Source: Anaerolinea sp.
GTDB lineage: Bacteria; Chloroflexota; Anaerolineae; Anaerolineales; Villigracilaceae
Reading direction: 5' to 3'
NCBI GenBank assembly: GCA_020720965.1
Contig: DYNS01000002.1
Span: 1 to 34,539, forward strand
DNA length: 34,539 bases
Shown here: positions 31,261 through 33,447 of the stretch, piece by piece
Layout: each line of letters begins with the position of its first letter
Position numbering within the stretch: the stretch's first letter is position 1
Position numbers and translations under genes: made by a program
Notes under the pieces: generated by a model
What the model was told of the DNA's origin: nothing
The model's input: the letters and a program-made list of their open reading frames with translations, nothing else
Databases searched by the model: none

Positions 31261-31809
31261 TTACTCAGCCTCGGAGGCTTTTTCCTTCTTCACCTTCACC
31301 TTGGCTGGACCCAGCACAACGAGCATGGTACGCCCCTCAATCATCGGGGCTTGCTCTATCACGCTCACATCCGCCAAAGACTGAGCAATTTCTCGCAGGT
31401 CTTCCAGCGCAATTTCGGGGTAATCCATTTCTCGACCTCGAAACCGCACGCTGACCCGTACCTTATGCCCCTGTAGCAGCCAGCGGCGGGCATCTTCCAC
31501 CTTAAAGCCGCGATGGTGTTCATTGGTTTTGGGGCGCAGACGAATTTCTTTCACCTCAATCTTCGTCTGGGCTTTTTTGGCTTCGCGCTCTTTCTTTTCG
31601 CGCTCGTACAAAAACTTTCCAAAATCCAAAACACGACAAACCGGCGGCGCAGCGTTGGGTGAGACCTCCACCAAGTCCAATTCGGCATCGCGGGCAATTT
31701 GCAACGCCTGTCGAATGGACACCACGCCTACGTTATCACCGTTGGGTCCAATAAGACGCACTTCGGGAACCCGAATTGCTTCATTTACGCGGAATTCTTG
31801 CTCGGCTAT
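31261..31809 (-). CDS. infC: Translation initiation factor IF-3, probable AUA start
   Basis: IF-3 sequence NEAIRVPEVRLIGPNGDNVGVVSIRQAL...; the frame extends upstream of the ORF-track start to AAGGAG-tacctc-ATA-GCC-GAG (IAEQEFRVNEAIRVPEV). Confidence 0.9.
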   Translation of the reverse strand: MAEQEFRVNEAIRVPEVRLIGPNGDNVGVVSIRQALQIARDAELDLVEVSPNAAPPVCRVLDFGKFLYEREKKEREAKKAQTKIEVKEIRLRPKTNEHHRGFKVEDARRWLLQGHKVRVSVRFRGREMDYPEIALEDLREIAQSLADVSVIEQAPMIEGRTMLVVLGPAKVKVKKEKASEAE

Positions 31810-31912: not shown

Positions 31913-31940
31913 TTGACAGAATCCCTAATCGGCATAGAAT
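31913..31940 (+). promoter_or_regulatory. Sigma-70-type promoter for the NCS2 permease leader
   Basis: TTGACA (31913-31918) - 16 nt - TAGAAT (31935-31940). Confidence 0.75.
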
Positions 31941-31948
31941 TGGGCGAA

Positions 31949-32029
31949 ATGTCTACACAAAGAGCCTTGCCCGAACCAATTCACGAACAACCCTGCCGAG
32001 GAAAAGGTGTTTTTGTTTTTCAAAAATGA
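31949..32029 (+). CDS. Putative 26-aa leader peptide upstream of the NCS2 permease (MSTQRALPEPIHEQPCRGKGVFVFQK)
   Basis: ATG 8 nt after the -10 box, 26 sense codons, U-rich 3' end GGTGTTTTTGTTTTTC, TGA at 32027-32029 overlapping the first base of the terminator stem. Too short for the ORF track. Confidence 0.5.
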   Translation: MSTQRALPEPIHEQPCRGKGVFVFQK

Positions 32030-32057
32030 GAGTCGCGTTTAGCGGCTCTTTTTTTTT
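32029..32057 (+). terminator. Intrinsic terminator/attenuator in the NCS2 permease 5' leader
   Basis: AGAGTCGC-gttta-GCGGCTCT followed by TTTTTTTT, between the promoter and the permease ATG at 32095. Confidence 0.85.
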
Positions 32058-32094
32058 GCCTGTATCCCAATTTTTTTTCATCAAGGAGAGAGAA

Positions 32095-33447
32095 ATGTCC
32101 CCCAAACCTACCCCCAAGCCCCGTGTAATGGGCTTCCTACCCGCCGACACCCCGCCCTGGGGCGCGATGCTTTCGCTCGGCTTTCAACAAGTGCTGACGA
32201 TGTTCCCCGCCACCGTGCTGGTTGCCATTCTGACCAAGTTTGACGTGGGCGTTACCCTGCTGGCGAGCGGCGTTGGCACCATCATCGCCTTGCTCGTTTC
32301 GCAGCGCAAAATCCCCATGTATTACGGCTCCTCCTTCTCGTATATTGCAGTTGTCGTCACCGCCATGAGCCTGTATGCGGGCGACTGCTTCAGTGACCCC
32401 GCCACCGTGTACTGTGCAGACGGAGTCCGCCTGGTGCAAGTCGGCATCATCGGCACCGGCTTGGTCAATATCCTGGTCGGGTTGTTGATTATGCGCCTGG
32501 GCAAAGCCGCTCTGGATAGAATCCTGCCTCCCATCGTCACCGGCTCGATGGCGGTTGTCATCGGCGTAGCCCTCTCTGGCGCGGCGTTGAACATGGCTGG
32601 CGCCAACTGGCTGGTTGCCTTCATCACCCTCATTGCCACCATCCTCTTCTCGGTTTACCTGCGCGGAAAGGGTTTGCTGGGGATGCTGCCCATCCTCTTC
32701 GGCGCAATAGTCGGCTACGCCACCTCCGCCGCCCTGGGGATTATTGACTACTCTGCCATCAGCAGCGCGGAATGGCTGCGAATGCCCGCCCTTACCCTGC
32801 CCGCCTTCACAGACCCCCGCGCCTGGGGCTTGGTTCTCAGCATTGCTCTTATCGCCATTGCCACCGTTCCAGAGTCCACCGCACACCTGTATCAGATGAG
32901 CCTCTACATAGACGAACTGGCGCACGAATTGGGGCGCAAACCCCTCAATATTAAAGAACTGATTGGCTTAAACCTGGTCGCAGACGGCACAGACGACATC
33001 ATAGTCGGCTTTTTGGGCGGCGCGGCAGGCACCAACTACGGCGAAAACAACTCGCTGATGGCAATTACCCGCAACTACTCGGTGCCGGTGCTGATGACGG
33101 CTGGGGTTATCGCCATTTTGCTGGGGTTTGTGGGCAAACTGGCAGGGATTGTCAACAGCATCCCCGTAGCAGTTACCGGCGGGCTTGCCATTTACCTCTT
33201 CGGAGTCATTGGAATGCAAGGCTTGGCGCTGATTCAATCCGAGAAGGTGAATCTCTTCGACCCGAAAAACCTCGCAGTCGGAGCAGTCATCCTCGTCACC
33301 GGCATTGGCGGCAACCTGGCGCTCAAAGACGGCTTATTCCCCTTCAATGTCCCGGTTTTCTTCCCGGCAGGCATCCCTGCCATTGTTTTTGCCGCCATGC
33401 TGGGAATTTCCATCAACCTGATTTTCGTCCTCTTCAAAACGGAGTAA
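32095..33447 (+). CDS. Uracil/xanthine permease family transporter (NCS2)
   Basis: PPWGAMLSLGFQQVLTMFPATVLVAILTKFDVGVTLLASGVGTII..., ILPPIVTGSMAVVIGVALSGAA, GTNYGENNSLMAITRNYSV; start trimmed to ATG 32095 after AAGGAG. Confidence 0.93.
   Translation: MSPKPTPKPRVMGFLPADTPPWGAMLSLGFQQVLTMFPATVLVAILTKFDVGVTLLASGVGTIIALLVSQRKIPMYYGSSFSYIAVVVTAMSLYAGDCFSDPATVYCADGVRLVQVGIIGTGLVNILVGLLIMRLGKAALDRILPPIVTGSMAVVIGVALSGAALNMAGANWLVAFITLIATILFSVYLRGKGLLGMLPILFGAIVGYATSAALGIIDYSAISSAEWLRMPALTLPAFTDPRAWGLVLSIALIAIATVPESTAHLYQMSLYIDELAHELGRKPLNIKELIGLNLVADGTDDIIVGFLGGAAGTNYGENNSLMAITRNYSVPVLMTAGVIAILLGFVGKLAGIVNSIPVAVTGGLAIYLFGVIGMQGLALIQSEKVNLFDPKNLAVGAVILVTGIGGNLALKDGLFPFNVPVFFPAGIPAIVFAAMLGISINLIFVLFKTE

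Follow-up and report, generated by a model that had tools for sequence, protein, structure and literature searches.

A predicted leaderless leader peptide in a candidate pyrBI-type attenuator of pyrimidine genes in Anaerolineales

The window, the 34,539-nucleotide stretch of DNA analysed here, belongs to a genome assembly of 3.3 Mb in 641 contigs, whose named relatives are MAGs of the Anaerolineales (Chloroflexota). An NCS2 permease gene occupies positions 32095-33447 of the plus strand, beginning with an ATG at 32095 that is preceded by a Shine-Dalgarno sequence, AAGGAG, at 32083-32088. The first-pass annotation had placed this start, with its own Shine-Dalgarno sequence, downstream of a terminator, as is indeed the case. 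By homology the permease is of the uracil type (uraA-like). Among solved structures the uracil permeases are its nearest (E 7e-48), and the uric acid-xanthine permeases reach only ~1e-7. The substrate is likely to be uracil. The initial label, uracil/xanthine permease, stands as to NCS2 and uracil and loses xanthine, the solved uracil permeases being closest. An infC-rplT cluster is divergent from the permease gene. Its infC (IF3) lies at 31261-31809 on the minus strand, and by eye seems to start with ATA (31809-31807) after AAGGAG, which would be another rare infC start codon. A scan of the whole window with Rfam returned only a tRNA, the leader of the permease gene itself being without a match.

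The leader begins with a promoter (31913-31940, plus strand; match 11/12) that was read from the sequence and recovered by a consensus scan. Its -35 element, TTGACA (31913-31918), is separated by 16 nt from the -10 element, TAGAAT (31935-31940). An ATG at 31949-31951, 8 nt past the -10 box, opens an ORF of 26 codons (31949-32029; MSTQRALPEPIHEQPCRGKGVFVFQK, then the stop). All of these elements had been described at first pass, and all were confirmed in the sequence. From the spacing of the -10 box and the ATG, the transcription start together with the leader ATG would fall within 31947-31951, and we infer a 5′ UTR of about 0-2 nt, which has no room for a Shine-Dalgarno sequence.

The same arrangement recurs in relatives. 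Thirty-six distinct permease leaders were drawn from loci bearing orthologues of the permease, and every one keeps the 16-nt promoter spacer and a -10 element of the form TA(G/A/T)AAT; their ATG comes 8-11 nt past that element. As an independent check, leaders standing before the permease or pyrC were selected anew by promoter and terminator alone, without reference to the ORF. In all 92 distinct leaders so obtained the ATG lies 8-11 nt past the -10 box, so the 5′ UTR hardly exceeds a few nt; the distance implies a predicted length of roughly 0-4 nt. The distance is 19 nt in a variant leader before pyrB (L246) and near 15 nt in a few leaders of other families, from which it follows that strict leaderlessness is not essential everywhere. 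Five leaders of other families have no ATG at the usual spacing; by eye, two of these (L285, L305) have GTG there.

Within the leader ORF of the window, just before its stop as first reported, is a U-rich tract, GGTGTTTTTGTTTTTC, at 32006-32021, the proposed site of a UTP-sensitive slowing of RNA polymerase. An intrinsic terminator, the putative attenuator, follows at 32028-32057. It consists of a 9-bp stem (32028-32036/32042-32050) closed by the loop GTTTA and a run of nine T (32049-32057). A strong terminator stem at the TGA had been noted at first pass. The TGA (32027-32029) does overlap the 5′ arm of the stem, as claimed, by its first two bases and not by one. Across the leaders 98% of the stem cells are paired, with compensatory changes in alignment A1.

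The leader ORF has been maintained. All 36 permease leaders have an ATG frame that runs open as far as the terminator; the other two frames do so in 20 and 14 of them. After shuffling of the nucleotides an open frame was found in 12.8 on average and in 23 at most. Most ORFs have 20-33 codons. In the set selected by promoter and terminator alone, the frame is open in 92/92, against 38 and 45 for the other frames. In other families it is open in 32 of 33 leaders (other frames, 5 and 15); because the leader sequences are related, none of these counts are of independent events, though many genera and several families carry the leader. Loss of the ORF or its stop in relatives that keep the terminator had been named as evidence that would speak against an attenuator of this kind. 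When this was tested, relatives proved to retain, besides the terminator, the ORF with its start, the U tract, and the relation of stop to terminator. That relation is kept with a variable position: in the 92 leaders some stops precede the stem by 0-7 nt, others fall within the stem or its loop, and others are past the terminator; 7 nt is the greatest distance by which any stop precedes the stem. A terminating ribosome would thus always cover the 5′ arm of the terminator, or stand further on.

The U tract appears to be selected as RNA. In the permease leaders, positions -20 to -8 relative to the stem are 60% U, rising to 92% at position -10. In the last nine leader codons valine is encoded by GTT in 35 of 43 cases, compared with 309 of 1534 in the permease genes, and phenylalanine by TTT in 47 of 65, compared with 330 of 947. 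U is therefore enriched at the wobble positions of the tract, and selection favors U itself, or the RNA, and not the amino acids only. The tract of some pyrC leaders is rich in C and U, not in U alone (25% C), and CTP or pyrimidine NTPs generally could be the signal.

The leader peptide is poorly conserved. Its C-termini vary widely (GVFVFQK, TDFVF, RFCF, FPFVH, ...ESRF), with a VSVF-like ending that recurs. Between close relatives, substitutions are distributed 54/34/29 by codon position, a mild third-position bias, and 58 codon changes are non-synonymous and 29 otherwise. The bias and the recurrent VSVF-like ending leave some room for a role of the peptide. An arrest peptide resembling tnaC or speFL, in which ribosomes would be halted by a pyrimidine metabolite as they finish a hydrophobic peptide and so block the terminator, would accord with the usual position of the stop codon on the terminator, the recurrent C-terminal motif rich in Val, Phe, Ser and Ile, and the slight third-position excess. 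We consider it unlikely. A tnaC-like peptide, with a constant C-terminal sequence and one stop position, was not found: the C-terminus varies, stop positions run from -7 to past +80 as counted from the stem, the codon changes are mostly non-synonymous, and a peptide signal has no need of U at wobble positions.

To map the distribution of the leader, a covariance model, R1, was made from 30 leaders, all of them of the permease, and used to search 152 genomes from the family. Matches occurred in 99 of the 152, including genomes without a detected orthologue of the permease. Of 103 matches at E<=1.4e-4, two are at contig ends (L166, L195), and all of the remaining 101 precede either the permease or dihydroorotase (pyrC), the latter in dozens of genomes. 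One of them, L029, stands before a divergent NCS2 permease of 30% identity. Where loci were inspected further downstream, pyrC was followed by pyrB, which encodes aspartate carbamoyltransferase, and some genomes have separate leaders before the permease and pyrC (L173, L174; G142, G169). The weakest matches, with E above 1.4e-4, include two before argG and one before an isopropylmalate/homocitrate-synthase-like gene. When R1 was run over 396 genomes sampled from the class, only three matches outside the family passed 1e-4, two before pyrC and one, a divergent leader, directly before pyrB. When 399 genomes of the order were searched with a second model, R2, to which pyrC leaders were added, 139 had matches. 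Forty newly fetched R2 loci, nearly all from other families, comprised 36 before pyrC, one before the permease, two (L273, L302) before OMP decarboxylase (pyrF, which by eye is fused with pyrE) followed by pyrD, and one (L303) before chorismate mutase. A leader common to the permease, pyrC(-pyrB) and pyrFE-pyrD gives independent support for pyrimidine sensing. In the window's own genome a contig ends 25 bp from pyrB (G000:C254:11427-12407), and the assembly yielded no close pyrC; the pyrC leader of this genome probably lies in an assembly gap.

Permease genes that have no such leader often carry a near-perfect extended Shine-Dalgarno sequence (AAAGGAGGTG) ~80-120 nt before the permease start (L004, L005, L024, L026, L054, L055, L062, L079, L108). 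In some cases a frame that opens with a rare start codon (ATC, ATT) comes after it, and this is possibly another kind of leader.

The association with pyrimidine genes bears on two other explanations. A small independent gene with an ordinary terminator, unrelated to the permease, would present the same promoter, ORF and terminator if these were all that could be seen. That explanation is extremely improbable given the association with pyr genes across families, the poor conservation of the peptide, and a consensus scan that found no promoter between the terminator and the permease. Terminators that depend on coupling respond to whatever changes the speed of the ribosome or the polymerase (PMC4824070), and on that ground the leader might sense the general state of translation or growth, through charged tRNA, ppGpp or ribosome supply, instead of pyrimidine nucleotides. 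We give this little credence, since the leader stands almost exclusively before pyrimidine genes and has a U/C-rich tract in which codon choice favors U and not any single amino acid.

Control of the terminator by PyrR or a similar protein, or by a riboswitch, would make the ORF incidental. In Firmicutes PyrR commonly regulates pyr genes through terminators, and the sequence of the terminator stem is well conserved here. This too is very improbable. The PyrR RNA site (RF00515) was found in 0/31 genomes of relatives, and a PyrR protein over the cut-off in 0/41, in line with the first-pass suggestion that regulation is independent of PyrR; moreover, the leader has no Rfam match, its frame is kept in 92/92, and the terminator is its only conserved helix.

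No conserved antiterminator was found, the terminator being the sole conserved or predicted helix in the leader alignment, and so there is none for a stalled ribosome to release. An alternative pairing of 31957-31968 with the U tract in the window's leader was rejected, as it is not conserved in relatives. A hairpin of the pause type just before the tract was found in 2/92 leaders of the window's family, which is not above the control (2.4), and such a hairpin is for that reason not counted as part of the window's device. In other families a G+C-rich hairpin of differing sequence, like a transcription pause hairpin, lies directly before the U tract; it was found in 9/37 leaders compared with a control mean of 3.2 (L274, L277, L278, L280, L282, L287 and L305 among the carriers).

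The leaders of these pyrimidine genes have a terminator, an ORF that reaches it, a U-rich tract before it and no competing antiterminator helix, all features of the pyrBI/pyrE type. With the other evidence, the failure to detect PyrR RNA or protein in relatives makes this the explanation that fits best. It had been proposed at first pass, and is supported by the conserved layout of ORF, tract and stop and by the same leader before other pyrimidine genes. Positions 31913-32057 are thus probably a pyrimidine-responsive transcription attenuator that works like those of E. coli pyrBI and pyrE with a leaderless or nearly leaderless leader; the UTP signal, the slowing of the polymerase and the start site are inferred from sequence, UTP being suggested as the ligand by the U tract and the regulon. 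Transcription would begin at the leader ATG or 1-2 nt before it, and a ribosome would initiate right at the 5′ end of the emerging transcript. With UTP in good supply, the polymerase would clear the U-rich tract before the ribosome could catch up, the hairpin at 32028-32050 would fold, and transcription would end. When UTP is low, the polymerase would presumably slow in the tract and the ribosome close up; on reaching the stop codon on the 5′ arm the ribosome would keep the hairpin from folding, and the uracil permease would be transcribed. In a published test in E. coli, a stop codon shifted to 5 bp upstream of a terminator reduced termination from ~90% to <10%, and this effect depended on translation (PMC4824070).

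The distance from stop to terminator separates this leader from those of amino-acid attenuators, in which the terminator is >20 bp from the leader stop, whereas the pyrBI terminator is inside the leader ORF (PMC4824070). An attenuator of the trp or his type was rejected for the window: its stop is not >20 nt upstream and no antiterminator was found. Leaderless leader ORFs of amino-acid genes do occur in the same clade, and their stops are 21-38 nt before the terminator, compared with -2 nt in the window. The leaders of argG (L228:100-440, L229:100-340) are leaderless and rich in arginine codons (MFSFFALPRTRRPKPTSLRRLG..., MFIKFVLPRTRRPEPTSQRRLG...; RTRRP...RR), with the terminator 21-25 nt past the stop, and are candidate arginine attenuators. 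At L303 (G032:C53:18149-18332, minus strand) there is a leaderless, Phe/Tyr-rich leader ORF, MANKSFRLYFSSFYYGFHSVAVGCA, ending in a stop. This leader (FRLYFSSFYYGF) precedes chorismate mutase (aroH) and a DAHP-synthase-like gene (aroF), has its stop 38 nt before the terminator, and is a candidate aromatic amino-acid attenuator. In the window's own genome (L115:1501-1745, contig C390) a strong promoter is followed by the leaderless leader ORF MFATLATPFEAKVKRLPTSALRFGIVGFSGLSEAMAD, ending in a stop, with the terminator 26 nt past it, before an isopropylmalate/homocitrate-synthase-like (leuA-like) gene. A similar promoter and terminator stand before that leuA-like gene in a relative, L227.

The closest parallel is pyrBI (pyrL) of E. 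coli and Salmonella, where likewise the leader ORF reaches the terminator, there is a U-rich tract and no antiterminator is needed (PMC4824070, PMC5021804). Both involve control of aspartate carbamoyltransferase, since in several relatives the leader is followed by pyrC and then by pyrB. There are differences: here the ORF starts at or near the 5′ end without a Shine-Dalgarno sequence, has mostly 20-33 codons compared with 44 in pyrL, and also stands before the uracil permease and pyrFE-pyrD; the phylum is different and there is no evidence of common descent. In the E. coli pyrE attenuator (orfE/rph) the ORF upstream stops shortly before the stem of the attenuator. That ORF is a full gene, unlike the minimal leaderless ORF described here. 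The PyrR-dependent pyr attenuators (RF00515) also control pyrimidine genes, including uracil permease, by terminators; they need PyrR and its binding RNA, neither of which was found here.

Leaderless genes with such -10 boxes have been reported in 4 of 12 Chloroflexi genomes, at about 4.7% of genes (PMC3160421). Leaderless leader peptides are also known. In Sinorhizobium meliloti the RNA of the trpL attenuator leader ORF starts with ATG (PMC7298713); trpL is leaderless like the leader in the window, but belongs to an amino-acid attenuator of the trp operon and does not sense UTP. In mycobacteria, leaderless polycysteine short ORFs act as cysteine-responsive attenuators (Canestrari 2020, as cited in PMC13236596), and are described there as translation attenuation, unlike the putative transcription attenuator of the window. 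The first-pass remark that a leaderless leader is undescribed for such attenuators holds in one respect: leaderless leader peptides as such are known (trpL, polycysteine), and no leaderless one of pyrBI type was found in a partial coverage of the literature. For the mycobacterial ORFs we know of no U tract. A search for pyrimidine attenuators in Chloroflexi, within the same partial coverage, gave only one unrelated paper. The new point appears to be the use of a leaderless leader peptide in a pyrBI-type switch; to the extent of that coverage, pyrBI logic was not previously known in Chloroflexota.

A broader proposal, to which we assign about even chances, is that much of the pyrimidine pathway of the order (uptake, pyrC-pyrB and pyrFE-pyrD), with PyrR apparently absent, is governed by a single class of attenuators, leaderless, sensitive to UTP and coupled to the ribosome, which would have arisen independently of enterobacterial pyrBI and in which direct loading of ribosomes at a 5′ AUG would set the timing of the sensor. 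This raises the question whether a ribosome on a leaderless nascent RNA couples to the polymerase within ~80 nt, fast enough to decide termination. The covariance models can mark pyr operons in unannotated genomes of Anaerolineales. A design like that of pyrBI has probably arisen, or been retained, in a lineage distant from the enterobacteria, apparently joined here with leaderless initiation, and it offers a system of pyrimidine control for a phylum whose tested relatives showed no PyrR.
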